Shown here: positions 39,709 to 63,890 of the stretch, piece after piece
Numbering within the stretch: the stretch's first letter is position 1
Layout of the letters: every line of letters starts with the position of its first letter
Assembly: GCA_026874595.1 (NCBI GenBank)
Contig: CM049320.1
Location: 23,755,714-23,819,713 of the forward strand
DNA: 64,000 nucleotides
Source of the DNA: Sipunculus nudus
Taxonomy: Eukaryota; Annelida; Sipuncula; Golfingiida; Sipunculidae
Direction: 5' to 3'
Translations under genes and position numbers: made by a program
Notes under the pieces: generated by a model
Seen by the model: the letters and a program-made list of their open reading frames with translations, nothing else
Database searches by the model: none
What the model was told of the DNA's origin: nothing

Positions 39709-40129
39709 GTGATATCATCAGATAGAAGTTTTTGCGGTGGATTACCAATCCCTTCATCAAGACTGACCTGGATCACCGGCCTAAATATTAGTATGATCTA
39801 ATACTTGATACATTGTGTTACAGGAGATAAGATCTGGAAGTACATAACACACAAAACTCATCGCAGCTAACAGATCAGCAAGAACATTGTGCCAAGAATA
39901 ATCAGAGGACATTGGTGGATTAACCAACACAGATGCAGTGATATTGCTTGAGTGAGCTGTCTACCTGTTTGTGTCAATTAAAATAAAAAAAAAGACGTCA
40001 GAGGCACTTATTTACAGCTGGATGATTATATAACAATCAGGATGATGGATAGAAACATGGTGCCACTGTTGGTGATCGTTTTCATGCTATTTTCCTCAGG
40101 AGTATCAGGACTCTTTTCTCAAATTTCAA
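39709..40129 (+). other. Probable 5' UTR plus coding exon of the secreted or membrane protein
   Basis: If the acceptor ending at 39708 is used, this exon holds about 330 bases of 5' UTR, then the start codon at 40042. A TAA in frame with that start lies at 39979-39981 with no ATG between, so the coding region cannot begin further upstream within the exon. Transcript data are needed to fix the 5' end. Confidence 0.4.
40042..40129 (+). CDS. First coding exon: signal peptide of an unknown secreted or membrane protein
   Basis: The exon encodes 29 residues plus one base. It begins ATGATGGAT. The n-region is MMDRNM, the hydrophobic core VPLLVIVFMLFSSG, and VSG|LF obeys the -3/-1 rule, so cleavage after residue 23 is likely. 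It ends TCA A|GTAAGT, a full consensus donor at 40130, leaving phase 1. The next exon I can find in phase is 23,136 bases downstream. An upstream in-frame stop at 39979-39981 supports the chosen start; either of the two adjacent ATGs may be used. A short signal-peptide exon followed by a very long first intron and phase-1 exons is typical of animal extracellular modular proteins. I do not recognise the gene. Confidence 0.7.
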
Positions 40130-40547
40130 GTAAGTATTTCCTGATTTTGGTATATTATTTGATGTGATGAATTAACTTTATTGCATACATCATGAACAAG
40201 TCATTATACATGCATATACAGTGGAACATGCCTGGAAGACTACCTGTATTAGAAACCACCTGTTTCTTGGCCATCCTTTAGTTAACTGAAGGTGTTCACA
40301 TTGGTTAGGACTGACCTGTCTGATAAGAATTTTCTGTAAAATGTAAAATAAAATTATGGCAATCATCTGACAGCAGAAATGAATTCCATATTTATAATGA
40401 GTTTAAAATTAAATATGACACAACAGATATATCATTGGGATATTTGATGGATGTCCTAAGCTGCCTATTTTTTTAAGGTCTAATTAATCAGATGACTTCA
40501 CAGTGGTATTAACAATGAGGCCATAAAGTGAGTAGTACTTATAAATC

Positions 40548-40750
40548 AGAAATTTGAATTCTCATTCTTCCTGGGAAAAATCAGAATCAAGAGATGGTAT
40601 AAAATTATTCCTGTTTTCCCCGGGAAAAAAATAAAAATTCCAGTCTCTCCCAGGATTGAGAATTCAAATTTTCCCGGGAGAGACTGGAAATCAGTTTTGA
40701 TATTTTTAATCTGTGAAAAATGAGAATTCTTATTTATTCTGGAAAGAACA
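40548..40750. repeat. GAGAATTC / TTCCCGGGA repeat, copy 2
   Basis: Homologous to 38525-38765: ATTCTCATTCTTCCTGGGAA, CAGTCTCTCCCAGG, TTTTCCCGGGAGAGACTGGA, then AATGAGAATTCTTATTTAT. It lies just inside the long intron. Confidence 0.6.
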
Positions 40751-41157
40751 GGAGTCATTTCATTGCAGCTTTTAAATCTTAATTTTACCCTTGTAAAACT
40801 TCTTTCCCACACCTTTCTTAATTCTGAACTTTATTATGCAAAGAAAATGAAGCTACCCACAAAATAATCCAATTCTGTTAATAAGTTCTATTGCAAGTTG
40901 GGGTAAGTATCAAATTATCAAATTCATTTTTTCTTTATTTTTTTTTTTTGCAGCAGTTTAATATTAAATTGCAAATTTTTACAGGTTCTTGTCACAGAAT
41001 AAAAATAATATTACATTCCATTTAAAAGACAAGGCATTGGTTACATCTGATGTTACAAACAATGTTATGATATACTGTCTAGGAGTTTACTTTTATTTTA
41101 CAAATCTTCTCTATCTACAAAATGATATTTTACAAGCAATTTAGTTCTGTTAAGTAT

Positions 41158-41310
41158 GAGAAAACCAGAATTCTTATTTCTCCCGAGAAAAATGAGAATC
41201 AATAAATAATACTAAATGATTTATACCAATTTTTTTACAGGAAGAATTGGAAATCTCATTCTTCCCGGGAAGATTCTGGATCTTCCCATATTCTTGTTCT
41301 TCCCTTGACA
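41158..41310. repeat. GAGAATTC / TTCCCGGGA repeat, copy 3
   Basis: A shorter copy with AATGAGAATCAATAAAT and the perfect 14-base palindrome TCTTCCCGGGAAGA (41260-41273). Confidence 0.5.
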
Positions 41311-41319
41311 TAAATAGAT

Positions 41320-43250
41320 TTATATTGTTTCTGTTAACTACCATTTCTATGATATTTGAAGGGTAATATATGGTGCAGTAAAAATGGATTATAAATTCAG
41401 TGTTTTGTGTGCACTTTTACAGGCTATTTATTATCTTTTCAAAAATCTTAAAACAGATACTGATAGATACAGATACTATATCCCGCAGATATCCATCTAA
41501 GGGGATATAGATGAATATCTGCGGGATATTTTGCAAACATCACGAAGACTATACCAGACATTTTACATCTGTTCTTATACAAGGAAGTAAGAATTTTTTA
41601 TTTTACAGTTTACTGAACCCTGCAAGAAGGGATGGTTATTTTTATGTTGACTGTGTGTGTGTGTGTCCTCGAGATATAGAACTGAAAAATGTGACATTTA
41701 TAAGTTTCAGGGCCGACTGTATATTTGTCAGATCAAAAGCAGGAACATCGTGACAACTTGCGTTTGGAGACTAGTTTTGTTTTAAATTGAAATCATAGAA
41801 TAATTTCGGGATTGACAGGATAGAACAGGTATTATTATATCAACAAATTATATATGTTTTTTTACTTACTATTATATAGGACAGTTTCCTGGAGGATATT
41901 TATATATATATAAAAATATATATAATGTTATTCTACTTACAGGCAAACAAATCAACAAACAGGCCCAACATAAAACATATATTTGTAGGCTCCTTTATCT
42001 AGTTTCAATGTTAAGCCAGAGTTTTTAAATATTTTGGTTTACGAACATTTTTGACAAAAGTGATATACCTGTGGAGGTAGGGAAAAAATATTGAAAAAAT
42101 GTGGAACAAACCTAGTTACAGGTCGTCCTGATGTATGTATCATACAGATGGGCAATAAATTTCATTTTTGCCCATCTAAACCTGTTAAATTTAACAAAAT
42201 ATTATAATCATCTTCCTGAGTTTTTCACATTCACGTGTGTTATTTCCAGAGATTCAAATGTCTTCAAAGGTATTTAAATAATTAGGACAAACAAAAAAAT
42301 GTAAATGGTTAAACTATTTGTGTGATTTCATACATGTCTGAAATAAAACTTAAGTTCCTGTCCCTGCCATGTAAACTGCCAATTTTATAAAGTATTACAA
42401 ATTAAAGATCAGACAAATACATTTAAAGATCTTGCAGTAATTTGAAATAATATTTTTTTGGTCAGAAATGTTAGGAGAAAACTAAATATTCACTTTTAGG
42501 ATGAAAGACTGCTGTTTGTATTGTTCAGTTGTGTTATGCTAATGAAAATAATGTCATTATGTGATTTGCAGTACTTAACACATATCTTGAGTTGTTTGAT
42601 TCATGGCCATTCCTTTTTGGGTGTTTCGCATGTTTGATAGTCCTTTGAATATCCAACAACTACTGATTAACTGAGCTTTGCATTAGATATAACATCAAAT
42701 ACTTGTCTACACTTTTCAGCTATTTTAAAAATATAAAAAGTATAAACATTTTTCACCTGCATTTTTGATCACGGCTGTTACGGTATGTGCTGTTCCCAGA
42801 TTAACAAACTGCCACTGACAGTCGGGTATTGCTTTATCATGCCTTTATGGCATGCATATGCATCAAAGCTTCCATCATGTCCTTTTGGAACAATGAAATG
42901 AATCCATTTAAGGTTTCTTCATTTAAAATGCCTGTCATTTTTGCTACTTTTTGTCTTGACAATGTGCAAGTACGCGCTTCACATAAACACGCGCCCTTAA
43001 GCCTACAGTTAGTCAGAAAATCTGCAGAAAGCCTGAGAATTCCCAAGTTTTCAAAGAATATCACAACCTTGTGCAGTATAATATTTGACCTGTTCAATCA
43101 TTATTAAGTTATAATATTTTTGAACAATAAACTTGTGAAAAAGTTTGTAATGATAAATATATAGCATCTGACTTTGAGAGTAACAATAAATCTTAAGAAG
43201 TAAACTTGTTTGTATATCCAGCAAGCTATAAAGAGTGGCAAGCTGGTAAA
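41320..43250. other. Intron sequence, nothing recognised
   Basis: AT-rich, with a short (GT)n at 41655-41666. GATATCCATCTAAGGGGATATAGATGAATATC near 41488-41519 is a local inverted repeat. No gene supported. Confidence 0.4.
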
Positions 43251-43257
43251 GCCACTA

Positions 43258-44649
43258 CCGTAAAATCTCCACTTAAAACCGCACTTCCGATTAAAACCGC
43301 ACCCAGACTTCGCCGAAATTCCAGGTGAGACATCGCGAGGGGCTCAAATACTAAGAACCCCCCTTTAAAACCGCACCAACTTTCGCTACGGAATGATTTG
43401 ACAAAAGACACAATCAAGCTATCATCTAGAAATGAACACTCGTAGGTTGCGACTCGGCCATTCCTGTCCACTTTTAAATTACTTGGGCAATTTATTTAAA
43501 CACATCATAACACTTTTTTGCAGGGTCACTCAAGCATGAAGTTTGGGAAGACGTAAGGGCTGGTGAACCTCTGCGTGTTTATACAGATTTTATATTCCGT
43601 GCCGTATTCTTGTTTGTTACTGATTTGTCATTATGTTTTGGAAAAAATATTCTGCTGATCCATTTCAAGTCACTGTATATTTTAATTCTAAAAATGTTTG
43701 ATGAAAATTCCATTTTCTGGAATTACTCGGAAGATTCAAATCATTTTCATACCGGTTACTTCGGTATTATCATCGTCACATCGTACGTTGACATCGCTCC
43801 ATGTCACAATTTGCTGGCGCGTTTGAAAACATCGCTGGTCAACTCAACTAAATATCAAAGTAATTGAAGTTACCTTGTCGAGATACGCACGTATAGGAAA
43901 CATGACGCTTGATAACGAATGATTTTAAGGTAAAATTAAAGTGGCCAGTCGGGGTAAGCAAGTTTTTTTTCCTGAAGAAAGTTTCCGTGTGGGGAGCCAT
44001 TTTGTCAAGGCAGTGTTCACGCAAGGCACGCTGGGACGAAATAGGTGGCTGTTCTGTTTACCACCCACCGCGTACAGCCATTCAAAAATTCTTGGCAGAA
44101 TACCGGGGCGTTTCAGCACATGGCGGCACTCAAACTTGATTTTAAAACGATCGTCTGCCATTGTGTGACTCCTTACGATGTCAGCTTTTTATTCATTTTA
44201 CGTTTTAAACAAATAATCATTGCTAAATAATGCCGCAAATGGGTTTAAAGTAGGCTTTATTTCAATTTTGCTTGAGCATGCCCAACAAAGTGGGCCGCTG
44301 TGTGTTACAGCAGGGTTGTTGTAAACGTATTATTTGGTGACAATTACCAAAATTTCATAACAAGTTATATAACACACGAAAACTATTCAGAAATATTAAA
44401 TTTATAAATAACAAATAATCGTAAATAATACATTTACACACGGCTCCCATGCATGCGAGACTGCTGCTAAGAACGGCCTTCGAAAGTTGCAATATTATCG
44501 CCCACTCGCCGGCCCCAAAGCGATGTCTGTCAGGAAGATATTCAGGAAACCCTTCTAGTATAAACCGCACAGTGCTTTCAGGAAATCAACCTGATTTCAA
44601 GATTTTGAATTTCTTGATAAAACCGCGGTTTTAAGTGGAGATTTTACGG
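43258..44649. mobile_element. Tc1/mariner-like (pogo/Tigger-style) non-autonomous element, 1,392 bp
   Basis: The two ends are perfect inverted repeats of 25 bp starting CCGTAAAATCTCCACTTAAA at 43258 and its complement ending at 44649. TA is duplicated on both sides (43256-43257 and 44650-44651). Subterminal AAAACCGCAC words recur near 43274, 43290 and 43366 and again at about 44564. Interior frames of up to 85 codons show no DDE transposase motif. The perfect ends suggest fairly recent activity. Confidence 0.8.
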
Positions 44650-44651
44650 TA

Positions 44652-46040
44652 TGCAACCAAACTAATTGTCTTTTCTAATTGACATATATGTGAAAACAAA
44701 TATGTTTAACCAAGTAAATATGACATAAATGCTGGTAAAGTTTGAAAATGTGCTGTAATGCAGAAAATGAGCTTTGAAAACTCTCCAAGAATTCTCAAGT
44801 TCCCTGCTGAATCTCTTGACTACTGGATGGCAAGTCCTTTGCATTTATGGCCTAAGAATATTCTATTGTGATTGGCTTAAACTCCCATCTGTCATTAAAA
44901 AAGTTACCTTTTTAGCCAATCAGAAGAATTAACTTTTAAGGCGATCTAATGTACACGGTCACAAAACATTTTATTTGTCAACAACCATTTTGGATACAGC
45001 AACGCAAGTCCAAATGCTAATTTTATTTTTTTTTCTGAAGTGAAGAAATCGGAGGTCTGTTGGTTTGTAAAACAAAAACTGATAAAAAACTGTGGCCTCA
45101 CCAGTAGACCATTCCACTTGCATAAAATTAAAATTGTGACAATATGACTTAATCAGGATTTATTGATTTTAATGGAATTGAATTCTTATGTTTTTGCATG
45201 TAATACCCCCAAGCCCTGCAGGTGTAAGCTGTCAGATTACACAAAACAATATAACTGAATCAGACCCTTAACTGTGGTCTGCATTGAATGTTCATATCCT
45301 ACACTTCCCTTGCCCATGTCTCATCCCTCCAAAAAGTATTGTGGAAGTTTCAGTTTTAGTGTGGTGTAATTTTACTTACAAGCAAACCAACAAACAGACA
45401 AATGCAGGTGATGACATAACCTCCATGCTTATAAGCTTGGTCAGGGTTTACACTGGGATTTGAAAATGGAGGGTCCTGCAAGTGAAATTTCCCTATGTTG
45501 ACATGTTACTCAATCTCCTCGCCAACTTAAAAGAGTTTATACTCGTGGAGTCCTGGACTCTTCCTGGTCCTGGGGATCACAAAATACCTGTGATGAAATC
45601 GGTGTGACTTCACCTGATCGAATATGTCGGTCCACAGTACACAGTACATTGGTTGTCACAAATGAGCCAGCAGAGGCGCTTCATTGACACTCCGTTATTG
45701 TTAATGATTTGTTTATCACATCAGAAGGTGACTGTTATGTCACTTTATGTGATGATTTTCTATTCTGTGTGTGCCTTCTCAACCTACTGATAACATTCTC
45801 ACCTTTTTTTTATGCTGGTTTTCTTTGACACTGATATATCAGGTTTTTTTATGACCCTGTTATCAGGCAAAACATTAAGTACTATCTGTTGGCTATGTCA
45901 ACTGAGCAGAAAATGGGTCGATGTACATGCTTATGTCATGTTTGCAGGGGGGGGGGGGAATTCATGCTTGATTTATATTGAAACCTTTACCTTGTAAGAT
46001 TATGAATGGGAAGCACGAAAATGTTCAACCTGTGTGTTCT
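44652..46040. other. Intron sequence with a G12 run
   Basis: G12 at 45947-45958. No gene or repeat family recognised otherwise. Confidence 0.4.
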
Positions 46041-46097
46041 ATTTTTAGCTCAGCTGACTATAAGTCATCTGAGCTATAGTCGTGGTCCATTGTCCGT

Positions 46098-46144
46098 CGT
46101 CCGTCCGTCTGTCCGTCCGTCCGTCCGTCCGTCCGTCCGTCCGT
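46098..46144. repeat. (TCCG)n microsatellite
   Basis: Tetranucleotide CCGT/TCCG repeat, interrupted once by CTGT, at the hairpin end of the element. Confidence 0.9.
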
Positions 46145-47211
46145 AGATGTGGCACGTTTTGAAACGGTAAGACCTAGGAATCCAAAATTGGGCATAATGT
46201 TAGATGTCCCCAAGATCTCCTACCAAGCCGAAAACTGGGTCTTTGCAACTTCGTTCCTTTGAGAAATTAAGGAAAAACCTCAATTTTTTATTAAAAACCT
46301 ATTTTCACACTTCAGGACTGCCTAATATCAAAACCACTCATCTGTTTTTCCTCATATTTACAATTAATATTCCTCTATATAGTTCCTATGTAAGTACCAG
46401 AAATTATGTCTGTATTATTTAATTTAAAAAAGTTATGGGCCCAAACATAATGCATTTTGTAAAAAATCAGGAAAGATATTTGATCACTTAACACAAAAAA
46501 TGTTAAAGCTATCGACCATTTTTCCAGTAATATAACTTTAATAAATCAAAATTAAATTGTATACCAAAACTTAGATGAAAATCTTTTAAATTTTCTAAAA
46601 TATTAATAAAAATAAAAAATTGGTACCTTAAATTTTGCCCAACTTTGACCATGGCACGTTTTTTTCCTGTAAGTACTGTGGATTTAATTTTCACAGCATG
46701 TTTTTGTTAGCATTTCAACTGTTAACACCAAAAATTTGAAACCAGTTGATCAAAAACTGTAGATTTTAATAAGTTTTCAAGCACCATGTAACATATTGTT
46801 TACATCAAGCTAGTGTTATGCAGTTTGCAAGAGCTCAGCTCCCCAGCTTCAGCTCTTAGTTCCTTAAATTCGGCATACAGTTAGATGTCTCCAAAATCCC
46901 CTACCATGCCAAGAATTTGGTCACTAGGACTTAATACCTTCGAGATATTAATGAAAAACTTCATTTTTCCATTAAAAACCCATTGTTACACTTCAAGACT
47001 GCCTAATATCAAAACCACTGATCTGACTTTAATCATAAATAATATACATATTTTTCATTCTCTATGCACATGCCAGAATGATGTCAGTATTGTGTCATTG
47101 TTTTAAGTTATGGGCCCAAACATAATGCACTTTGTAAAAAATCAAGAAATATATTTACTCCCTTAACAAGGGCATTGCTGAAGCTAGAGATTTTTTTGTC
47201 AGGGATGTAAC

Positions 47212-49779
47212 ATTATTGTATCCCCAGACAAAGTCGGGGGATACTATGTTTTCATACCGGTCCCGCCGCCGCCGCCGCCGCCACCGCATATGAATCTTGT
47301 TGGCGCGATAACCCAAAAAATATTTCACGGAACTTTACCAAACTTGGTATATGTATAGATATGGGCAAGAGGACGACGCCTATTTAAAATGAGGTCATGA
47401 CCTTTACTAGGAGAGTGTCCTTGACCTTGAATAGGTCCAGTTTTGGGGAAAATCCCACAAATTCTTTAATATCTCAAGAAATCTTGCATGGATTTATCCC
47501 AAAATCAAGTTGATGGAAGATCATGGATAGGGTTGTCATGTTACAGAAACTGGTGGCGCCACCTATTATTCTTTACTTGTTTTCGTGCCGATTAATACCC
47601 CCAAAATTGCCCCTTACAGCACTGTGAGCATTATAAGTCAAAAACTAATGGACAGATTTCTTTTATATTATGCATATACATAGGTATGGGTTATGGGATG
47701 ATGCTTATTTAAATTGGGGTCATGACCTTTCCTATGATAGTGGCCTTGACCTTGAATATTGCCATATATGGTGAAAATCACACACCTCTTATGATATCTC
47801 CAGTGTTGATAGCCATATGGATTTCAAACATGACTTATGTATGGCCCACCACTAAAGTAAGAACCCTATAGGTTCTAGGGTCATGAGGTCAAAGGTCAAG
47901 GTCACTGGACTGGCATTTTAAAAGATACTGTGGATGCATTTTAAGCCAAACTTTCATCCCAGGTCTTCCATCTTGAATATATAGCTCACTTGCCAATAAT
48001 GGATGATCCATATAAATTTTGGGGTCACAAGGTCAAAGGTCAAGGCCACAGGAGCTATCTGTCCAAAAATTAGTTTCTGGATGATAATTCCTGCTTTTAT
48101 TGATGTAATGATTTCAAAATTGACTTATATATGTCCCATTGAAAAAGCAAGACCCAAATTGATTTTGGGGTCATGAGGTCAAAGGTCAAGGTCACAGGAA
48201 ACCTCTTTAAAAAGATTGTGGATGCATTTTCAGCCAAACAATTCATCTCAGATCTTTCATCTTGCACATATAGTTCACCTGCCAAGAGTGGAAGACCCCT
48301 ATCAATTTTGAGGTCACAAAGTCAAAGGTGAAGGTCACAGGAGCCATATGTCCAAAAATTAGTTTCTGGATGATAATTCCTGCTTTTATTTATGTATGGA
48401 TTTCAAACTTGACTTATATATGTCCCATTGGAAAAGCAAGACCAAAATGGATTTTGGGGTCATGAGGTCAAAGGTCAAGGTCACAGGACACATCTTTAAA
48501 AAGATGTGGATGCATTTTCAGCCAAACATTTCATCTCAGACCTTTCATCTTGCACATATAAGTCATCTGCCAATAGAGGAAGACCCCTATCAATTTTGAG
48601 GTCACAAGGTCAAAGGTGAAGGTCACAGGAGCCATCTGTCCAAAAATTAGTTTCTGGATGATAATTCCTTCTTTTATTGATGTTTGGATTTCAAACTTGA
48701 CTTGTATTTGACCCATTGGAAAAGCAAGACCCAAATTGATTTTGGGGTCATGAGGTCAAAGGTCAAGGTCACATCTTTAAAAAGATGTGGATGCATTTTC
48801 AGCCAAACATTTCATCTCAGATCTTTCATCTTGCACATATAGTTCACCTGCCAAGAGAGGAAGAACCCTATCAATTTTGAGGTCACAAGGTCAAAGGTGA
48901 AGGTCACAGGAGCCATCTGTCCAAAAATTAGTTTCTGGATGATAATTCCATCTTTTACTGATGTATGGATTTCAAACTTGGCTTTGTTATTGACCCATTA
49001 GAAAAGCAAGACCCAAATTGATTTTGGGGTCATGAGGTCAAAGGTCAAGGTCACAGGAAACCTCTTTAAAAATATTGTGGATGCATTTTCAGCCAAACAA
49101 TTCATCTCAGAAGACCCCTATCAATTTTGAGGTCACAAGGTCAAAGATGAAGGTCACAGGAGCCATATGTCCAAAAATTAGTTTCTGGATGATAATTCCT
49201 GCTTTTATTTATGTATGGATTTCAAACTTGACTTGTATATGTCCCATTGGAAAAGTAAGACCAAAATTGATTTTGGGGTCATCAGGTCAAAGGTCAAGGT
49301 CACAGGACACATCTTTAAAAAGATGTGGATGCATGTTCAGCCAAACATTTCATCTCATATCTTTCATCTTGCACATATAGTTCTCCTGCCAAGAGAGGAA
49401 GAACACTAACAATTTTGAGGTCACAAGGTCAAAGGTGAAGGTCACAGGAGCCATCTGTCCAAAAATAAGTTTCTGGATGATAATTCCTGCTTTATTGATG
49501 TATAGATTTCAAACTTGACTTGCATATGTCCCATTGGAAAAGCAAGACCCAAATTGATTTTGGGGTTGTGAGATCAAAGGTCAAGGTCACAGGACACATC
49601 TTTAAAAAGATCAAGGTCACAGGACCAACATCTTCAACAAGATTGTGGATCGTTAGATAGAATAAACAATAAATATGCCAAGTGACAGTATATGCTGTTA
49701 AAAAGGGTCTGGTCTTGTAGGAGGGGGGCCTACTATGTCTGGGGATACTCTGGCACCTGCGGTGCCAAGAAATGTCTAG
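47212..49779 (+). mobile_element. Helentron-like element, copy B, full length
   Basis: The 5' end has GTATCCCCAGACAAAGT (47218-47234) and a hairpin TATCCCC...GGGGATA (47219-47243), then a (CCG)n patch. Near the 3' end ACTATGTCTGGGGATAC (49732-49748) is the inverted match of the 5' end (16 of 17). It is followed by a hairpin TGGCACC-TGC-GGTGCCA (49751-49767), eight bases, and CTAG (49776-49779) before TTT. The core (about 47820-49620) is a tandem array of about 145-bp half-units. Subterminal inverted repeats, a single 3' hairpin and insertion between T residues fit Helentron-type non-autonomous rolling-circle elements. No Rep/helicase is encoded. Confidence 0.75.
47886..49296 (+). promoter_or_regulatory. 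Seven perfect DR1 nuclear-receptor motifs in copy B
   Basis: AGGTCAAAGGTCA is exact at 47886, 48030, 48176, 48465, 48753, 49035 and 49284. Intervening half-units carry AGGTCAAAGGTGA. Spacing between neighbouring half-units is mostly 143-148 bp. These lie in the first intron of the + strand gene. Confidence 0.5.
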
Positions 49780-50039
49780 TTTAATCAAGATTCAATTGAA
49801 TACCCAAAATTAGTTCTGAATTTTTCAAATTTTATAAGTTATTAGTATAAATATAAAATTAGTACCTTAAATTTTGCCCAACTGTGACCATGGCACGTTT
49901 GTGTCCTGTGAGCACTGTTGATATAATTTTCATATCATGCACACATTAGGATTTCAGCTTTTTAGTTTAGAAAGCTGAAAGAAATTGGCCAAAAAGTGTA
50001 GCTTTTATTAATGTTTTTTATGAGACCCTGTCAGACTTT

Positions 50040-51332
50040 GGCTCTCTCCAGCCCCTCTTGAGTCACCTATATGTTGACCTTGTTGACCTTTCATCAAATT
50101 ATGCACGCTTGAGGCGAGGCATACAGGAATCCAGGCAGCTTATGGCCAGCCACAGTTGATCCAGGTGTCCAACCCAACTCATCTAGTAGTTTTAACCAAC
50201 AACATAACAATAAACAATAAATTAATAAATTTTTATTGGTTTTTAATAACAAATTAAAGAAAAATAGAAAAGGAATTTGTTAGTTTATAATAACAGGAAA
50301 TTAACTTGCAGTTACTGATGATATAAGAATCTTGTATCGATGGGCACATATTCCAAATAACACCATGCAGTCACCTATGGCATTTTTCAGTTCAATTTTA
50401 ATGATAAAGAAGTAAATCATATTATTCATTACTAATCATTAGGGATCATATGAAGGAAATTAATGATAGACAAAGATGCAGTTGATAATATTAATCTAGA
50501 TTCCTACTGTGTCTAGTGTGTACATTGATGTGAAATTAGTCCAAAATGAATTTTTTACCATTTATTTTTTAATATAAATAAAAGCCATAAAACCAGGTAC
50601 TTATGATCATTATTTAAATGTGTGAATTTTGTATATTCTGGATTCTCAGCATCATTGGTTGGTGAAACTGAATAAATACCAGACATGGTGCGAATACTTT
50701 GTAATTGTATTTAAATACGAATATGATTATGTACTCCATTATAAAATTTCTTGCATAAAGAATAGGAATTCAGGTAAAAATGAAAGTATATGAATACTCG
50801 TGCAAATACTTTCAAAATGTATTCATGAATGCATTCATGAATATATTCTTTAATATTATTTTAATAATCATATCAGTTATATTTAAAAAAATCATATGAT
50901 TCTCTTATTATTTTTTATAAAAATTATATTTGGGACAATATTTGAAATTTGTTTTAATAAATAGTTAAACTCTTATATTATATGTTCTGCTTATAAGTTA
51001 TATGGCCAAGTCAAAATCTGTGTGACAATAGTACTCCATTTGTTAATAAAATAAATGAAATCAATCCTCTTCCCTGTCTCCAAAGGTACTATCAAAATCA
51101 TACATAAGCAAAATCATACATAAGTTAAACAACAACAACTTATAATACAGCTTATATTTATTACCACACAAAACCAGCATGTGCCTCATTTCTAAATAAT
51201 ATTTTTTTATCATATATAAGAGCTGAGCGTCGTGACCCATAGGTCCCTTGTTTTTTGTTCATTATGGTAAATGCCCCTTCCTCTTAATGTGGTTATAAAT
51301 CATACATACATACATGTATATAGTATGCCTGT
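50040..51332. other. Intron sequence, nothing recognised
   Basis: Very AT-rich; no gene or repeat family recognised. Confidence 0.4.
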
Positions 51333-51719
51333 GTGATGCAATACAAATTCCTCAAAGTTCTAACAATTCACTCATTAAAAACTCCTGCATTCATCATATA
51401 TTATAACTTTTTCAATTCAAAGCCAGTGTCACATATCCAACAGCCTCCGGCCGAATTTGTGGATTGCCAGAAAGTTGCCAAATTTCAAGCCCACCAGGGT
51501 GTTCGAGCGAATTTGCTTAAAATCTACCATGTCACATATTGGAAATTGCTGAATTGGGAACAGGCTTCAGCTCCCTGCAGACATCGGCCATCCCCTAAAA
51601 ATTGCAGGGGAGCATGCAGTGATCGCGCAAAAACCAGCCGTATTCCTGCCAAAAATGCCTTTTTTGAGCTTGCAGAGAAGTTGGACAGGCTATGTTTTGG
51701 ATATGTGAAGGCTCCTTAA
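51333..51719 (+). other. Unassigned 128-codon open frame in the long intron
   Basis: The frame contains VDCQKVAKFQAHQGVRANLL and ends FELAEKLDRLCFGYVKAP before TAA. The stretch from about 51425 to 51715 is less AT-rich than its flanks and looks like coding-derived sequence, perhaps from a mobile element. No consensus splice sites in a phase compatible with the flanking exons are evident, and I recognise no domain. I do not call it a gene. Confidence 0.2.
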
Positions 51720-53377
51720 CCACTGCTTGCTATAGCAGGTGTTGCTGGGTTTTGTTACCAGTTTGTTGGCCCAGGGCCAAGAATATTCAGACCAATGAGA
51801 GCAGAGAAGTGCATCACAGTTTTCCATGTTTCCCCCACTCTCATCTACATGCATTAATCATTAATGTGTGGGAGGTATTTCATGGAAACTTGAACCAGTT
51901 TTACTATTTCAGGTATTTGTAGTTCTATATTTTGGTATCATATCAGCCATCTGACCATTCACTTATCATGTCAGTTCACCTGCATCAAACATTATATATC
52001 AGTGGGAAAATACATTTATAAGTAAATGGTACTAGGTGTACTTGATTACTGAAGTGATGTTATATATCCCTTCACATTGTCAACAACCTCCTCATAAAAA
52101 TGCTACACGGATGTGCCCAGTTATCTGGATACATTATCTGTTTTGATTTAATCTGGTCTATGACTATCAGTAAGCATACTGTATAAGAACAATGATATCT
52201 TATAAGGATGCTTGAATAAACACATGTAACCTTTTGTTGTCTGCATCCTCACATTGTCTGTTAGCTTGCTCTTCATCACTTGAAAAGTATCAACTAACAA
52301 GTACTTATGTTAATTATATTACACCATTTTCTAAATTTCTAACACATACATGTACATTCATACATTTGTACACCAGGATTTGGTTCAAAGTCTAATACAA
52401 ATTGTACAATCATGTATTCAGATAAAAATGCAGATCTGAATCTTTTTGAGCTCTATCAAATAGATCAAATGCTTTCAGAACTGAATAAATATGCAGTAAA
52501 AAATCAGATGTTTTCACACTCAAAAGCAAATGCACTGCAGGGGTTTGCATTTAAATGCAGAAATAAATGTTATATTTTCAAATGAAAATTTCTGTTTGCT
52601 TTTGAACTAAAGTCTGTTGTACACACATACACATGTATCCAAAGAAGCATACAGTATATGCAGCCCCAGCCATATCCCTGGTAAACAATCTGGCAAATAT
52701 ATTTATATGTGCAGTATAAATTTATATAGAGGCTCACACTCTGAAAATGTAGTCCCCATATTCTGGCATAAGCAGTCCTAAACGTAAAGCCTATTGATGG
52801 CCTATTTTGTAACTAAATAACAACCGACCTGGAACAAGTTGCCACTTCTGTGATAGGGGTGTTATTATAAGCTCCTGATTGAGCTGAGGGCAGTGGGTCA
52901 ACCATGCAAAATAGTTTAGTGATGAAAGCACCAGAGAAAATAACCCCTTGCATCAGCTGGCATAATATTGTATTATAGGGCAATCTACCCTTACTGGAAA
53001 TTTTAGATCATAACCAAAGACCCTGCTGGCAATTTCAGTTGGTTTTGTCATTTAAATGCATGAAATTTGTATTAAATTATTCTCGAGGAGTATGATCTGC
53101 GATTATCCTGCAGTTATCTGAAAATTTGAACAGTTTTACAGTTAGGAGCAGTTTGGACATATAGTAATTTGTTATAATTCTCATGGTGAATGCTAAATTC
53201 GGAAGGGTGCATTTTAACAATCAGAGGTCTGTGGTTAGCATTTTGCTAATTTGCCTGTGTGAAAACCCACCACAAACTGAGGTTTGAAGTCAACAAATTA
53301 GTCCTGTCACAGTGTCGGTCAGAATGAACTGCACTAAAGTTGTCAGTGTACTAGAGCTAGGTTATGCCTTTTTTGTT
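51720..53377. other. Intron sequence, nothing recognised
   Basis: No supported gene or named repeat. Confidence 0.4.
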
Positions 53378-53720
53378 TCTGCGAGGAGGGTATGTGTTCA
53401 CCCCATTCGTGTGTGTGTTTGTTCACAAGTTAACTCGGCATCATGAACGGAATCTCATGAAATATTCAGGGCATTTTTGGAATGAGCCAGTGAAGATTCA
53501 ATTGGATTTTGGTATGGGTCCAGCACCTGATCTGGATTCGGGAATGTAATCAAGGAATATTTACCAAATATACAATTACTTAAGCATGGATGAACCTAGT
53601 AATATGGGCTGAAAAAGTTTTTGAGAAAACATGGACAAACATGGTTTGAGAGCATTCCTCTGTAGGGACCCCCCCCCCTATATGTCGGAGGCTTGCATTC
53701 CTTAGAATGCAGGTTACTAG
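53378..53720 (+). mobile_element. Small Helitron-like element, 343 bp, copy 2
   Basis: Same family as 37495-37821: start TCTGCGAGGAGGGTATGTG, 3' hairpin GCATTCCTTAGAATGC (53695-53710), six bases, CTAG (53717-53720), then TT. A C10 run is at 53669-53678. Confidence 0.65.
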
Positions 53721-54059
53721 TTCTTTGCTGTTAAATATTAGCTCAGTTGACCTTTTCCTAAGGGTAGGATTATTTATGTTTTACGATAATCATGATATCT
53801 GACAGCTGCCAATAGCCATATATAATTAATTTGAATTTTCCTGACTATTGTAATATCATGAATTACATTTTGTTACACAAACATGCCTTGTTAGTTGTTA
53901 CTAGTTTTAGGATTCTTTGCTGTAGAGAACGACATCAACAGGGTGACAAGTGCTGGAGTTCCAGCAGGATAGAAAAATCACAGTGTATCGCAATAAATTT
54001 TATTTCCCTATCACCATGATAAAAAAACTGATAGTGATATGGTCCAAAACCTGCTTATC
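53721..54059. other. Intron sequence, nothing recognised
   Basis: No gene supported. Confidence 0.4.
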
Positions 54060-54071
54060 CTTAAAAACTGT

Positions 54072-54134
54072 TGGTGAAATCTCTGTAAAATTAATGAAAT
54101 TTCTGTAAAATTAATGAAATCTCTGTAAAATTGC
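54072..54134. repeat. Three 21-bp tandem copies
   Basis: GAAATYTCTGTAAAATTAAT occurs three times in a row, the last copy diverging after AAAATT. Confidence 0.85.
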
Positions 54135-54139
54135 ATAGA

Positions 54140-55087
54140 CTTATTAAAGTTAATCAATTACAGCACAGATTGGTATGGAATGAGGTGCTAATATAATTAA
54201 GTAAGTGACAGAGGAACATGATGTAATATCTATGTGGTTAACGACAACAAGATATCAATTTCAGTAGAGTTTCCAGTTGCAGATTTTCACCAGGGTGACT
54301 TAAGTGACAATTAATATCACACTTTGGTCAAACCACAGAATTCTTTTCGAGATCTGTGTAGTTGAGTTCTGTATAGAAATGTGCCCATGCAAAGCTTTGT
54401 CACAGATAAACTGAGGTCTGAGGAGTGGCTGCCATTAAAAGTACAGATGTTGAATCGCTGGCCCAGCCGGGTGACACCAGCTGTTTCCAGTTGTCAGAGA
54501 CAGGTTACTTTTTTTTCAGGCCTCACCAGCCACTGTAATGCACATTCACAGCTCAGATGCTTAGATCAGAGGGTGTACCACAAGATATCTCCCCTGTCAA
54601 AATAACCCCCCCCCCCCCACAGCCTCCATACCTGCTATTCCACTGGTGACAATTTACCTTTTTGTCAAATTGACCGCGTGCTCTGTTTCTTGCATGAAAC
54701 TGAGGAGGAAAAATTCCCTGCCATACCCTAAATATTACGGGATGAAATATCTTGTAGATTATTTGTATTTTATACTGCACTAGGTATAATGTAAAGCACC
54801 TAAGAGCATGTTATAATGGATTGTTTTCTCTTTAAAATTTTAATGATTATAATAATAATGATAATAATTATTATAATAATGTAATGATTATAATAATGTT
54901 GTAATTATATGTGTTATAAATATATTACTGAAGGAAAAAAAATATGGCCAACCTCTCCCCATGTGGTAATAATTCCCTGTCATGAAAGTGGATACTAGAT
55001 AAGGCAGCTTGGATTTATTCACCAAGCTAATTCTACTTCTATGGGGGGGGGGGGGGGGGGGTTGACAGGGGAAGTTTGCCCATACTG

Positions 55088-55091
<4 letters not shown>
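54140..55091. other. Intron sequence with C13 and G19 runs
   Basis: C13 at 54606-54618 and G19 at 55043-55061. An ATAATAATGATAATAATTATTAT block lies near 54845-54890. No gene supported. Confidence 0.5.

Positions 55092-55118
<27 letters not shown>
55092..55118. repeat. (TA)n microsatellite
   Basis: Short TA run of about 27 bases. Confidence 0.9.
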
Positions 55119-55525
55119 CACTGTTTTCAGTATCTATACATGTGTAGTAGTGTTGTTTTCACACAGCCTGGATGTCATTTGGCTGGGTTGTTATTGTTTG
55201 CCCATTGTGGCACTGGTAGTATGTAAATTTAAACTATTAATCATAGAAAATATCAGGTGGTAGCAAACAGCACATGATACAGTGTTGAGACACATTGCCT
55301 GATTTGGTTTTGATTATATCAGGGTTCCCACATACTTGAAAATCCTTAAAATTGTTCTAAGATATTTTCAAGTCCTTGAGATTGCTTGAATTTAGCTGAT
55401 TTTGATCAGTTTCCCTGAAATTGAAAAAGACCTAGAATTTCCCTGTGATAGCTAGCCATGGCAGACTAAGATGAACCAATAACATGACAACAAAGATCTT
55501 ATTAATTTGGAAATTGCACTTAGAG

Positions 55526-55606
55526 CCTGGAGCTGTGTTAGGCAAAAAGAAGGCTGACTTTAGTAGTACGCTCTGTTGGGCAAAAAGACGGCTGACTTTA
55601 GTAGAA
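55526..55606. repeat. Two 40-bp tandem copies
   Basis: TGTTRGGCAAAAAGAMGGCTGACTTTAGTAG occurs at about 55532 and 55575. Confidence 0.75.
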
Positions 55607-55609
55607 AGC

Positions 55610-57985
55610 CGAGTTTCTTGGCTCTACTCTGCTTGGAAAAATGTTGGCTGGCTTAAACTGAACTGAATGCCTATTCATTTGATGATATTACAAATTACCA
55701 GTTTTATTTAAATAAGATATCTATATTACATGTGACCCCTGTATTTTTAGGGATGTTAGGCTTCGACTTTGTCAGTCAGCATCAAAATCAACAAAAGTAA
55801 CGTTGTATCAGTCTGTATATATTTCGAAATTTTTAATTGTAAAAGATTTATTTTTTGTAAAAGATTCATCTTTTTGTATTAATTTTTTTCTCAAGCTAAA
55901 CGGAGCTGCACAAAATTGGCTCACTTCCGCCTAAAGAAATATTTGCTGTGCCTCCTGATGAACTTGGCTCTGCTTGATCTTAACTCGGCTGGCGGTGGCG
56001 TTGAATGATGGCGTGCTCTAACTAGACTTATACAAGAGAAGGATGAAAAAAACCTGTAGAAGCATCAAAACAACCTGAGGGAAGGGGGGGGGGGGTGCTA
56101 GGGAAGCTGTCCAAAAAACTTGAAAATACAAATTTATGACTTTATGTTTATGAAAAAAACTTTGTTCAAAATACCTTGAAAATTAAATTAAAAAGTGGGA
56201 AACCTGATATTGCCACTATCACAGTATATTCTTTAAGTGTCATTGGATTTATAGGTTAATAAATACTATGAGTGAATAAAGCAACATATACATTTGATGT
56301 ATTTACTAAATTATGAAACAAGCCACAATTCGACAAGCATAGTTGTTCAAATGAATTAAGTATGACTGTTAATATTTACATATATGTACAGTATTCATGT
56401 AAACTTGTATTTGTAATATCTTGTAAAATACTGTCTTTTGAAATTGTGTGTGTGAGATCTTCTATTCTCTTTTAATTTGGGACATTTTGTTCTGTGCTTT
56501 TCAATCTTCTGTTTACTAATCATGAATATATATCTAAGACTCAGTATATGCCTAATACTTGACTGGTGCAGCTAACTTTGAGTTGTGAAGCTAGTCATCA
56601 AAAACTGCACAGCAAAGGGCCATGTATCCTTTTACAATTGTATTGCCAAAAATGATTAACATAAGGCTGGAAATGTTGAATTAACACAAAAAAATACCTT
56701 TGAATGTACAAATTCCATCTCTGTGGTAATTTCTGCCATTTATGACACTTTGTATGACTTTGCTGTCAATGAAATAATTCATCGGAAACATGGTCAGAAT
56801 ATAAAAAAAAAACTTCAGGGATATTATGAACATATATACCAGTATATTTTATGCCGGTTCAGAATATCTGAAACTTTAGTCTGTTTCAGATAATTATTAT
56901 TATAATCCATGTGTGTCTGCATTGAACCTACTGACCCATTGGTTGTTAAACACATATTGGTGTATGTAAACCACAGAGGACTTCCTGGCTGAAACCTAAA
57001 TCGAAGCAAATGCCTTTTAACCACATAAAACTATATAGATTTTCATTGGGGAAATTGGCAGTATAATTTTTTACAGAGAGCAGTTATTTTAGGTCTCTTG
57101 GGAGTTCCAGAATATAGCATACTTCTGTTGAAAGACTATTTTTCCATTAATCTAAACCAAACTCTCACATTTGTATTTTATCATGTTACATAAAATCACA
57201 TTTCTTTTTGAGATAATTTGCTCTGTGACATTTTGGTCACATATAACAATTCTGTAACTTGAGTAGTTTAATTGACCAGTTGTTTAAAACAAGTCCATAA
57301 CATTTGATTGAATACTATATTTAACTTATAATGACATGGTTGGAGTTTCAGCTTATATCCTGATCAGCTGTGTATCTCAGTATCTTTAATGTCCAGTGAC
57401 ACTATATTATATACTGAATGTTTTCATTTTAAAATAATCATATATTCTTTGGTGCCTTTAGGATATCAACTGTTAGCCATAGGGCCAGGTATAAATACCT
57501 ATAATCCAGAAGTCATTTATAACTTGAAGTTAACTCGAATTTCTGAGCCCCAGCAAAGGCAGCCCCAATACCATGCAATGAAATTCACCCTAAGCTCGGA
57601 TGAACACGGCACCCCATTTCACAAAGATAAGAATAATTTTACAAAAAACATGTTATGATGATGAAGATGATCTTCACAGTTACATAGATTAAGTATTATT
57701 CCTCTGGTATTAACCTCCTAATTAACTTTCCACAAATTTCATCAAGATTTGTTCATTACCCCTTTGAGAAAAGTTGGTGACTGACAAACTTGTCAAATTA
57801 AAAAAAAAAAAAAAAAAATGAGGATTAAACATTTAAGTCTTGTAGCAGAGATGTGTGTTTACAACAGTTATATTTTTCAGCTGCTGTGTGCAGGGCATAA
57901 CATTAACGGTTATATAACCACTTGCCCAGGGAACTAAAATTTCCGGAAAAAATTGGCAGGGCAACAAAAACTCATCTCTTATCTG
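55610..57985. other. Intron sequence with a G12 run and no supported exon
   Basis: G12 at 56084-56095. An 89-codon frame at 57389-57658 has no recognisable domain. Confidence 0.4.
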
Positions 57986-58248
57986 TAGGGCTGAAATGTG
58001 TACAAAATTCTGGCCTCAAGTACCCGATAGGCGTTACCTGACTCAGACGCGAGTACTCGTTACCCTGGCCATGCTGTAATGATAAAACAGACATCTGTTT
58101 ACCCAATATGATAATTACACTGTCCATAAATTTGCAGTAATATTCAGATTTGCCTGTACATACACATGTTCTCGAGTCCAAATTTTGTACTCGACTACTC
58201 GGTAAGTACTACCTGGACTCCAGTACTCAAGTACTCCTTTCAGCCCTA
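57986..58248. mobile_element. hAT-like MITE, 263 bp
   Basis: Ends are TAGGGCTGAAA (57986-57996) and TTTCAGCCCTA (58238-58248), a perfect 11-bp inverted repeat. The interior is rich in AGTACTCGAGTAC-type words. The flanking octamers CTTATCTG and CTTACCTT agree at 6 of 8 positions, fitting an aged 8-bp hAT target duplication. Confidence 0.65.
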
Positions 58249-58249
58249 C

Positions 58250-61200
58250 TTACCTTAAAGGCCTGAATCTTAACTTAATCTTAAACAGCCATTTTGTTTC
58301 TTGGAGAAATTAGATCATATTGATATTTATACCTCTACCTGTACATCTTAAATTACTTATAATAAAGAGAAATAAAACTAAGAACTATAAAAAACTTGAA
58401 GAACAATCATTTAGAATATATTATGTGTTTGTGGCAACAATCAATTTTTTTTAGGGCAAATAAAATTTCATAAGGGGCAAGTAGAAGCAAGGTACTACTT
58501 GCTGAAAGTCAGTGTCAAGCCATGGTGTGTCAGACCATGCAGAGGTGTTGTGCAGCAGTTTAAGACATGTTTCCTTGTCCTTTTAAGACATGTTTCCTTG
58601 TCCAAAGTGAAAGTTATCTCTGTCATATCAATGTAAATATACACAAGCTGCACAGACATTATGACCTAAATACAGAGTCTTTAATGAACATTACAGGTGT
58701 TGCACTCCCACAAGTACCTTTTCTGTAGAAGGACATTAAAGTGTCCTTAAAATATTGTAGGAATTCCTAAGGCATCTAATCAGACCTTTGTTTGCGATCA
58801 CTTCAAGGTTATTGTACTTCTACTACATAAACAATTATCAGTGGGTTTACATGTATATAGTATAGCACTCTATACACGTGTATTCATCTATATATGATAT
58901 GTACATTTGTTGCAATTCTTCAGCCAATGGGTCAGTTATCTGATGATAATTAATGTATCGGCACATTTGATGTGCATTAATACTGTTGTTGGGAATCAGT
59001 GATAACTTCATGATTGATCATGACATCAGTAAAAATCAGTTGACCTTTACTGACCAATAATCAGAAGTAAGTTTTAATTACAAGTATGACATTTCTGGGC
59101 ATATTCAGACCTGTACATAGTCTAAACTGATATACAGGTCTATAAATCAATTAAATGTAATAATTCTATGACCTATATGTGTGTGTAGTAACCGTGGGTG
59201 TGAGGTTTTAAGTAAACACTAGACTTCAGAAATCTAGCATTTGTTCATGTGAATTAAATGAAAGCATTCATTTCCTCATAGTTATAAGTAGTGATATTTG
59301 TATCATTGTTACTGTTAGTAAGTTTGTTGGTCAGATGGTTGGTTTGTCAGGTACCAATTTAAGTACCGGTAGTCATGAACAGATGGTTATGAAATTTTGG
59401 GGATGGTTAGAGTATCACCAAAGGAAAATCCATTAAATTTTTAGGTAATTTTGATTCACAATTTTGTTTTATGGATTCTGAACCATTGGGAGATAATGTC
59501 AGTTCATTTTGGTTATCTCAGAGGAGGGCTAGATCCATTCATGGGTAAAAGGGCCATGACACGTTTTTTAGTAGAACACAGGGAAGTTTGATTACAATTC
59601 TGAGAAAGACCTAAATAAGTAGTAGGCTAAAATTACAAAAAAAAAAGGTTGAGTTGTCAGGCACTTTTTTTCACCAATTTCAGAAATATTTGTGGGAATG
59701 TGGATTTCCTTTACCATAAACTTTACCCTTTTATTATAAATTTTCAGTAAAAAATTCATATGATCAGGGTAGAACATGATAATTGTTTTGCTAAGCAGTT
59801 AAAAACCCATTATAACAAAACAAAATTTTTATTTCATTTTCATTTAAGAAATGTTAAGAAGAGAAGCTATAGTGCTCAAAATTGGTAAATTTCTACTGAA
59901 AATACAAATATTTTTTATGGGGGGGGGGGGGGGCAAAATTGATGCCCACTGTGGGTGACCAACCAACCTTTATTTGCCTAATAGCAAATTTACTAATGGC
60001 CTGGCAGGTCCAATCCAGGATGATTCATTAACACACTATGGTTTAATGTAAGGCTGAGTAAAGCAGAACACGGATTTCATGACCTTTGTGTTGACCTTTC
60101 AGTCATGTAACTTCCTGGTGCAGTGTATTGTGGTATCCCACAACCTGGAGAAACATGTGATTTCACCACAAAGGTCACAAACTTTAAATACATGGACCAC
60201 ATAAAAGGATACATACTGCAGGATTTACAACATAAAAGTTTTAAGCCACCCACATTGAACAGTTGTGCAGTTAATCCTGGGCCGACCTTATGAATGTTAA
60301 CTCTTGCATTATAAAAACATAAGACCATGGCTTTAAGTTTGCTAGATGGCGCTGACTATTATATTGAGGATGAAAGTAACCGCATGACAGTGGGTTAATT
60401 ATTTGTTATTTGAAAGTTTTTTTGCATCCCAAGTTTTCTGTTCATAAATTCTGTTAATAAATAAATTCTATTAATAAATTCTTATATTAAATTCTGTTAA
60501 TGAATTATGTTAATAAATTCTAGGGGAAAGGGGGATTTTAAAGCAATAAAGAATTTGGTCTGTAGGTTACTATATGTGTATTCATACAATACATAAAAGT
60601 AGTATTACATTTCAGAATTCAAGTCATTGTTCTTTGTTCAAATTGGTTTGGCCTTTGAGTATGTGATTAGAAATTAATGAATAATGAAGAACCCCTTAGA
60701 TTGGTTTGACTGGGTTGAAATTAGCCAATGAGATGCTAGTTAAATGATTCTGACCAATTATTTTTCAACTAACGTCTGCTGGACTGCCAGCTTCTATGAA
60801 ATGTTGGAGGTCGCTAGTTAAATCTCCGACTTTCTGTTTGATGGCATCAATACAGGGAAATCTTACAATACTGATACAATATTTCACTTTGAGAATTGTT
60901 GCAGCCTTAGAGATAATAAGTTAGGATACACATGTGTATAAAAAAAAAATTTGTTTAAGCTAATAACTGCGTGTAAAGTTGGACTCACAGAGTGGAGGTG
61001 ATATGTTTTGTAATGGAATTATGTTTGATCATTCCAGTAGATTTGTTCTTTTTAATTCCATTCTTTGTATTTTATTCATTTATAAAAATGTGTCAACTTA
61101 TTTGTTCGCATCATTTTTGATAATAGACTAAATTAAAAAAAATAAAATTGTGCCATTTGTGCCATCAGAATCATGAAATGCAGGCATCTGTGACCTCCTT

Positions 61201-61852
61201 TTTGCATAAACTTGATTTGATATAAACAATTTGCTTCATAAAATTCAGCATAGTACCTGTATGTAAAGATGATTTGAGAGAGTTTCACAATGATTCAGTT
61301 GCACTGTTTGAACTTCTAAATCCCCCAGCTGTTCCTGTATCCATTACTTAAGCAATATATTGAGTAAACTTGCGTGCAAGTATGTGTTACATGCACATTA
61401 ACTTTTTTCAGGAAGTTACTAAGAAAAAACTTGAGATACTGACAACACTTGGACCTGACACAAGGAGTTCATGTAATGCATACCTTTCCCTCTATCTGGT
61501 GAAGTGTCACCCTTGAGATATAGATATATTAAACTTTGCCCTGGTTTGAAAATTGTTGAACTGTTCCATACCAGTCTCATATTTTCTCTGTTTTCACCTG
61601 GAAAACACTTTAAAATATATTATAAGGAATGTTAATTTTACACTATTTTTCAGGTTTATACATTGCCTGAATTTAGTAATTTTTTCCCTGTGTTCTGCTT
61701 TATTTTGAGTCCCAAGCATGACAGGTTTGCAACAAAGGCAACCATACTTTGATGCAGACATATGTAGTTATTTGAGTAAGACAAATAGGGTATTTATGTT
61801 AAACTTCAGTTATCAGCAGGTAATGTTTAACAGTCAGTAATATAGTATAGTA
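58250..61852. other. Intron sequence, nothing firmly recognised
   Basis: A 23-bp direct duplication (TTTTAAGACATGTTTCCTTG...) lies at about 58558-58602. G15 is at 59919-59933. A CTCF-like core GCTAGATGGCGCT is at 60341-60353. No gene supported. Confidence 0.45.
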
Positions 61853-62280
61853 TAGGGTTGGGATGATATCACTTTTCTATATCATAATAATGAAATAGAA
61901 TTTATTGCAATATATCATGGTATCGTAATACAAGTATCTGACAAGAGTACTCCAGCCTTTGTCACGATATCAGATTATCACAGATGTCAGTGCTGTCTGC
62001 CATGTCCGACTTCTTACAAGCGATCAAATCGCCAGTTTTCAGAGAATGTGATTCTGTCAGTTTGTCCTCCACAGTCATTTTGAACATACCCATATTAAAA
62101 TAAATGTTATACTTGAAAATATATGATTTTCTGAACACATATAGAAAGACCCTGGTGATGTCATAATCTTTTTGTATTAAGCATATCATGATATCACAAT
62201 AACAGGGAAATTAACGATACAATTATCGCAGCTGTCAGATATTGTGATAATCCCAGATATCGATTATTGTCCTAACCCTA
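61853..62280. mobile_element. hAT-like MITE, 428 bp
   Basis: Left end TAGGGTTGGGATGATATC (61853), right end ...CCTAACCCTA (62271-62280), giving inverted TAGGGTTRGG termini. Flanking octamers GTATAGTA and TTATAGTT agree at 6 of 8. The interior has several GATATC / ATATCATG words in both senses. Confidence 0.65.
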
Positions 62281-62790
62281 TTATAGTTATGTCTGAGTTT
62301 GGTCATGAAAATACAACTCATAGGGTCCTGATAGGGACTACACTCCTCACACCGCAGTAACATAAGTTCTGCAGTCGTCCTAGATCTCCTTTTTGTTTCA
62401 ACTGCTGATTAGTATAGCAAGGTTCCCTGGGTTACACCACCAGGGAGAGCACAGAGCAAAGAATTGCAATCAAACCAATGGGAGGGTGGTATCGCATTGT
62501 GCATCCAGCTCCATATTTTAAATGTGTATCACCTGCTCTTGTTGATCTGATTGCACAGAATCTGGCACAGGTCCAAGAACTAGACCAACGAGAGCAGTTG
62601 TCCCGTTGTAGTCAGACCAAGGTGTGAAGTCAGAAGGTGTCATGTGCATGTTTCAGATGTAAACAATATCTGGGTTAATGCAGTGTGGTTATGGTGATTT
62701 GACACAATTCAGAGTGTATTAAAGCAAAAAAATCTGGTCTGATATAAATAGCAAAAAAGAATTAGAACTGTGTAAAAGTTGTTATTTTGA

Positions 62791-62837
62791 GGTGGTCACT
62801 AAAACCGAGGTCACTGTCGTTAGGCAAGGTTTGACTG
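62791..62837. mobile_element. Fragment of the CAGTAAAMCCTC MITE family
   Basis: GGTGGTCACTAAAACCGAGGTC...AAGGTTTGACTG matches the right half of the MITE at 20618-20776. Confidence 0.5.
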
Positions 62838-62854
62838 TTGTAATAAAGCAGAGC

Positions 62855-63181
62855 TCAACATAAATGGTTACCCGCTTACCTGGTGCTTGTAAAAGATTTA
62901 GAAAAAAGTGGTAGGGTAAACAAAAGTAGCTTCTTGCCTTGTGTTTCAATAAAATTCCCAAAATGTTTTGTGATTCAAACTGACCAATAATATGTCTTTG
63001 TCCTGAATTATATATAGTAAATAACCTGTTAATTAACTAAAAACAGTAATGTTGAGCACACAAGTTTAGCAGCCTGGCCACAGTTACTGATTTTTGTAGG
63101 GTGTCCAAATTTGTGTAGGGCAGGTTTAAGCTAGATGATATTTACCCAAGGGGCAAGCATTTAAAAAAGTTAAATGTTGAG
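62855..63181. mobile_element. Possible TIR element with CTCAACAT ends
   Basis: CTCAACATAAATGG (62855) is opposed by AAATGTTGAG (63172-63181). Interior phrases TTACCYRC and GGGGCAAG recur near 57900-57960 and 58470, suggesting an older relative there. No clear target duplication. Confidence 0.35.
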
Positions 63182-63265
63182 TCCTGTAAAGATGGTAGTG
63201 CTAATTATCAGTACGTCCAGGATATCACCTGGCATTGTTCTAACATCTGCTGTTTTTCTTTTCAG

Positions 63266-63322
63266 TGACAACTGCAGCCCCTAGCAGCAATGGCTCAATG
63301 TTTTTAAATGATACATCATACA
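63266..63322 (+). CDS. Second coding exon: Thr/Ser/Pro-rich, N-glycosylatable segment
   Basis: The exon is 57 bases, phase 1 at both ends. The acceptor is CTGTTTTTCTTTTCAG ending at 63265 and the donor is A|GTAAGT at 63323. Joined to the single base left by the first exon it gives ATG, then TTAAPSSNGSMFLNDTSY, with no stop. NGS and NDT are N-glycosylation sequons and TTAAPSS is a likely O-glycosylated stretch, fitting the mature N-terminus of a secreted or membrane protein. It must join a further exon beyond the window. The match of phase, two consensus splice sites and composition makes this hard to explain by chance, but it is unproven without transcript data. Confidence 0.65.
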
Positions 63323-63479
63323 GTAAGTGCTCCATATTTAAGATTCGTCATGTCATTTTGAATATTAAATTCATGCAGGGTTTTATTTTAGGAGATTAAC
63401 ATTGACCAAGTTGGCAATTGAATATAGAAATGCTACATTTACTACAGGAAACAAAGTTGTTGTTTAACCCTATTTTGTT

Positions 63480-63890
63480 GCCTGTTATGATTGAGTTCTA
63501 AGGGACTTGCCTTTGGGGGTGCCATGCTTTCCATCTTGCCTTTTTCACATGCATTTTCCCAAGAACCTTTCACGATATTGCTGTGAAAATTTTACTGAAG
63601 ATTGAAACCTGTGGAAGGATGTGTATTGTTGAATTTCAGACCTGTCTGAATTTCAGACCCATCAGAAATACAGTATGGCTACCAGGCAGTGATCTTGAAG
63701 TTCTTTTATATACATCATTTCAAGAACTGTTCAAGTAATTGCCATGAAAATTTTACCAAAGATTGACACTCATGAGAAGATGTCTTCTACGGAAATCAGA
63801 CCCAGCCAATTCCAGTATCACCACAAGATGGTTAATTTTAGGAACTGGGTGTCACAGGGTCCTAACAGTTGACCTTTAGGATCCCAATCA
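63480..63890. repeat. Two to three diverged tandem units of about 160 bp
   Basis: ATTGCYRTGAAAATTTTACY is found near 63578 and again near 63738, each followed by AAGATTGA and, about 60 bases on, CAGACCCA. It lies in the intron after the second exon. Confidence 0.55.

Follow-up and report, generated by a model that had tools for sequence, protein, structure and literature searches.

Group A SRCR domains are encoded by two or more exons and contain six cysteines per domain. M130/CD163 carries SRCR domains in its ectodomain, followed by a single transmembrane helix and a short tail. Mutually exclusive exons are known from the insect gene Dscam. In invertebrates SRCR genes are many and show mixed architectures (PMC10855680). 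An excess of introns at phase 1 near the signal-peptide cleavage site is documented (PMC1626468), and signal peptides and the shuffling of 1-1 exons have been linked to long phase-1 introns (PMC7259759). A long first intron is ordinary in itself.

Two segments of the DNA analysed here, separated by 23 kb, very probably open a gene of 16 exons on the plus strand of contig C15 (40042 to 108400) as its coding exons 1 and 2; the gene is predicted to encode an SRCR type I membrane protein. The predicted protein resembles M130/CD163, whose chains are also the top PDB sequence matches to both of its SRCR domains, in having SRCR domains in the ectodomain and a single transmembrane helix with a short tail. 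Unlike M130/CD163, it contains only two SRCR domains, which alternate with a different domain, designated X, and are accompanied by a lectin-like module and a Pro/Thr stalk. In uniting SRCR with further domains the gene is similar to the expanded SRCR families of invertebrate animals, whereas each SRCR domain is encoded by two exons here, versus three in the expanded genes of sponges and one in those of sea urchins (PMC10855680).

The window, i.e. the whole stretch of DNA that was analysed (64,000 nucleotides), covers positions 23755714-23819713 of C15 on the plus strand, in a genome of 1.43 Gb and 153 contigs that was searched as a whole. A further 200 kb of C15 past the window was added (264 kb in all), and the window numbering is continued beyond 64000. 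A sequence-only reading of the window had described a signal-peptide exon ending in A/GTAAGT at 40129/40130 and a 57-base exon with a defined acceptor and A/GTAAGT, and both descriptions are exact to the base. Coding exon 1 (40042..40129, plus strand, 88 bases) comprises the ATG and the putative signal peptide (MMDRNMVPLLVIVFMLFSSGVSG...) and has a phase-1 end at its GTAAGT donor, which on inspection lies in the context TTTCAA/GTAAGT; an in-frame TAA is present at 39979, with ATG 40042 20 codons downstream. Coding exon 2 (63266..63322, plus strand, 57 bases, phase 1-1) encodes a Ser/Thr-rich linker, and is bounded by the acceptor TTTTCTTTTCAG/, with a strong pyrimidine tract ahead of it, and the donor ATACA/GTAAGT. 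The joined exons form an open frame, MMDRNMVPLLVIVFMLFSSGVSGLFSQISMTTAAPSSNGSMFLNDTSY plus one base, in which the phase-1 ends, the stop-free join and the sequons NGS and NDT of exon 2 are all confirmed; the junction of exons 2 and 3 creates a third sequon, NIT. Intron 1 (40130..63265, plus strand) is a phase-1 intron of 23,136 bases that is rich in repeats. Intron 2 is also of phase 1, and runs from 63323 to 64000 within the window (plus strand) and on to 65513 in the continued numbering.

Several repeats were observed in and around the first intron. Positions 50000-51256, inside intron 1, form the end of a young and abundant repeat: all 39 matches scored (of 12,505 candidates) in a DNA search with 50000-64000 are copies of it, with 92-100% identity. 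Two copies of one element, built of tandem units of 288-289 bases with flanks that are 96-98% identical, occur at 35630-37475, left of exon 1, and at 47211-49601, within intron 1. A tandem array at 22979-25107 consists of about 81 copies of a 27-base unit and has a strong bias for C and T on the plus strand.

The specificity of the two exons was evaluated with a rule set, requiring a signal-peptide-like start, a GTAAGT donor and phase 1, that was scored on both strands of the window. A single donor, that at 40129, passes on the plus strand, and none on the minus strand. In a set of 200 first-order Markov windows, 16 contain a first exon that passes, and 3 contain such an exon paired with an internal 1-1 exon; these are post hoc rates that serve as support only, because the rules were drawn up once the exons were known. 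Since a rule-passing pair does arise in random windows, and the scan covers many windows, the two segments might be chance open stretches bearing splice-like ends. The downstream gene is stronger evidence on this point than the chance statistics: an SRCR gene in matching phase starts 2.2 kb right of exon 2, and the chance reading, which we consider extremely improbable, was dropped. A codon-score scan of both strands of the window yielded five candidate exons, none of which is like this gene (0/5); the scan is insensitive, because exon 2 escaped it as well.

A different question is whether the gene begins with exactly these two exons. The SRCR gene could be real and yet use another first exon, or join exon 1 directly to exon 3, so that one of the segments would lie outside the mature transcript. 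When the donor requirement is relaxed, three first exons of phase 1 with a signal-peptide-like start are found before 65500, at 40129, 43782 and 55218, the latter two being weaker than the first. A second 1-1 exon that passes the same rules, 59282-59317, lies 3' of exon 1 and also leaves the frame open when placed between exons 1 and 3. In addition, the frame of the gene survives the omission of exon 2. Exon 2 is therefore the least secure link of the model, and its inclusion rests on its own splice sites and sequence. Two points speak against such alternatives, which we regard as unlikely: both strands of the window considered, exon 1 alone combines a signal-peptide-like start with a GTAAGT donor, and exon 2 has a strong pyrimidine tract, a GTAAGT donor and two sequons.

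The exon 1 region has a partial counterpart elsewhere in the genome, which also bears on the possibility of another first exon. It matches C4:3127958-3128363 with 98% identity, and in a comparison with the 3.4-kb C4 locus window positions 38500-41235 align to C4:3127116-3129863 at 97%. Exon 1, with its 88 bases, and its GTAAGT donor are identical in the C4 copy, an observation of little weight given the shortness of the stretch and a divergence of 3%. No second copy of the exon 2 region was detected among 40 scored of 62 candidates genome-wide, at C4 or elsewhere, and exon 5 has no near-identical second match in the genome (47/47 scored). A second near-identical gene on C4 was accordingly dropped as an explanation. 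Since copies of exons 2 and 5 were undetected, the C4 sequence looks like a partial duplication; an assembly error is the alternative. The duplication of the exon 1 region, for which no copy of exon 2 was detected among the candidates scored, counts in favour of the alternatives in which one of the two segments is absent from the mature transcript; we continue to favour the arrangement in which exons 1 and 2 together open the gene on C15.

Codon scores combined with splice sites revealed half of an SRCR domain at 66517 and the transmembrane exon at 107484; inspection, local tblastn and phase matching supplied the other exons. All lie on the plus strand. The first SRCR domain (SRCR1) starts in exon 3 (65514-65626) and continues in exon 4 (66517-66727); exon 5 (67578-68093) encodes a whole X domain (X1), and exon 6 (69768-69836) a linker. 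SRCR2 is encoded by exons 7 (71155-71298) and 8 (76747-76932), and the second X domain by exon 9 (77612-77784), a middle exon 10 in two candidate versions, b1 (81933-82101) and b2 (84751-84907), and exon 11 (87561-87755). The lectin-like module is formed by exons 12 (90526-90795) and 13 (91821-91949), and is followed by exon 14 (105490-105627), the transmembrane exon 15 (107484-107586) and the last exon, 16 (108328-108400), which ends in TAG. The complete frame runs from ATG 40042 to TAG 108400 through 16 exons, with 877 codons (b1) or 873 (b2), and contains 13 (b1) or 10 (b2) sequons. The predicted order is thus signal peptide, linker, SRCR, X, linker, SRCR, X, lectin-like module, Pro/Thr stalk, transmembrane helix and tail. 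The earlier proposals that the two segments are exons 1 and 2 of one gene extending rightward, and that it encodes an extracellular or membrane modular protein, are hereby supported at the level of the gene model: the exon at 65514 takes up the phase of exon 2, and the predicted frame remains open via SRCR as far as a transmembrane helix, beyond which it ends in a stop codon.

All 15 introns have GT and AG at their ends, with weak donors at several of them (gttaag, gtttgg, gttagc). Phase 1 is found in 12 of the 15 introns, phase 0 in two and phase 2 in one. Skipping of a single exon breaks the frame for five of the 14 inner exons (3, 4, 9, 10 and 15), while the remaining nine, exon 2 included, are dispensable for the frame.

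The SRCR assignment is firm at the sequence level. Exons 3 and 4 match Pfam SRCR with E 2.9e-11, the second half of SRCR2 alone with 3.2e-14, and exons 1-13 joined with 4.7e-43 (146 bits) in two stretches; the two separate pieces score 44 and 53.5 bits against the Pfam cut-off of 26.1. Both SRCR1 and SRCR2 agree with group A in their division over two exons. SRCR2 contains six cysteines and SRCR1 four; the two that are absent from SRCR1 would presumably pair in one disulfide, following the standard numbering. In the PDB sequence search 37 distinct sequences are matched by SRCR2 and 15 by SRCR1. Most of the SRCR1 matches, M130 among them, are sums of many weak repeats, none of which passes singly for M130; a stretch that passes alone occurs only for neurotrypsin, Mac-2 binding protein and one complement factor I chain.

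The X domain comprises about 170 residues and is encoded by exon 5, a single exon of 172 residues, and again by exons 9-11 together. Searches with X against the PDB sequences gave no matches up to E 10 with queries of three and of eight sequences. Nothing significant was found in Pfam, where LIN37 (0.021, for the exon 11 piece) remains under its cut-off and the best value with eight members is 0.11, or in NCBIfam (best 0.086), and the titles and abstract openings listed in literature searches contained nothing on such a domain. A whole-genome search with X1 gives 20 matches up to E 0.01, including X1 itself; the other 19 are distributed over C9 (13), C7 (2) and C4, C12, C14 and C16 (one each). 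These relatives show 27-39% identity, and one is interrupted by a stop. They occur partly in tight groups, on C9 near 12.3, 19.8 and 55.0 Mb; the C4 member lies at 48.3 Mb. A profile made from five X relatives, with X1 left out, finds X1 with E 1.4e-20, exon 11 with 5.5e-11 and b2 with 0.0075. With the same profile b1 reaches just 1.5, which is worse than a chance ORF on the minus strand (0.99), and exon 9 is not matched up to E 10; its link to X1 comes from comparing the two directly (E 1.7e-6).

The presence of the SRCR-X unit in two successive copies resembles a tandem duplication, and the model might in that case merge two adjacent genes with one SRCR and one X each. The frame, however, is open through the linker exon 6, the first unit having no stop after it, and the only transmembrane exon is located at the end. 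Furthermore, no signal-peptide exon for a second gene was seen, the stretch scanned being that before 65500. We therefore consider a merger of two genes very unlikely, and retain a single gene in which the SRCR and X domains alternate.

The candidate exons b1 and b2 are both located between exons 9 and 11, and each starts at phase 0 and ends at phase 1. The frame fits either one singly, whereas inclusion of both, or of neither, leads to a stop. In a two-sequence comparison b1 and b2 are identical in 17 of 59 aligned columns (E 0.009), and it is this similarity to b2, together with position and phase, on which the membership of b1 in X rests. A profile that includes the b1 and b2 sequences found no additional first or last part of X across the 264 kb. 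Mutually exclusive exons would be laid out in this way, and the pair, whose homology is weak, is a candidate splice switch. As in insect Dscam, two similar exons are flanked by a common upstream and a common downstream exon; in contrast to Dscam, just two candidate alternatives are present, which are highly divergent. The interesting, less ordinary parts of the gene are X and this pair of middle exons. Conceivably, the gene represents a class of receptors based on an undescribed extracellular domain X that alternates with SRCR, in which mutually exclusive exons exchange the central part of X in its second copy and thereby alter binding, a tentative proposal that we consider somewhat less likely than not.

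Inspection of the sequence shows the layout of a type I membrane receptor, with the signal peptide of exon 1, an outer region and the helix of exon 15. The single hydrophobic helix is followed by basic residues and then by the 24-residue tail RRRKMLKEDESRVRFMQLDQNDKM. Exons 12 and 13 resemble a C-type lectin by eye alone. Neither the Pfam matches up to E 5 nor the 12 PDB sequences matched up to E 10 include a lectin, and an assignment as C-type lectin, which would call for a match to a lectin profile or solved chain, was not adopted.

From these predictions we infer a receptor that is spliced, expressed and located at the surface. Transcription would begin left of 40042, and the 23-kb phase-1 first intron would be spliced out. 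The resulting mRNA would encode 877 residues, or 873 if the alternative version of exon 10 is used, and the signal peptide is expected to direct this type I membrane protein to the secretory pathway. Its ectodomain would face the outside, anchored by one transmembrane helix with the 24-residue tail. By analogy with SRCR receptors, binding of an extracellular ligand is most likely, with a possible role in immunity or adhesion, and the second X domain may come in two forms, depending on which of the two middle exons is used. Should microbes or self ligands be bound by X, the study of innate immunity in animals that lack antibodies would gain a recognition module. A reading of raw DNA without tools could thus locate a probable true gene start and the next exon 23 kb away, and its extension provides a complete receptor-like gene model in which a candidate splice switch lies inside X, a domain without significant matches in Pfam, NCBIfam or the PDB sequences.

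At the 3' end, 26 candidates that begin with basic residues lie within 92 kb, and exon 16 was chosen from them as the closest. It supersedes two more distant tail exons, at 118574 and at 151726, the latter of which sits, by eye, amid retroelement-like ORFs. Downstream of the TAG, an AATAAA is present at 109169. At 203257-203514, 95 kb beyond the stop codon, an exon candidate shows a weak match to Pfam ig (0.0046, below the cut-off), and is perhaps part of another gene.
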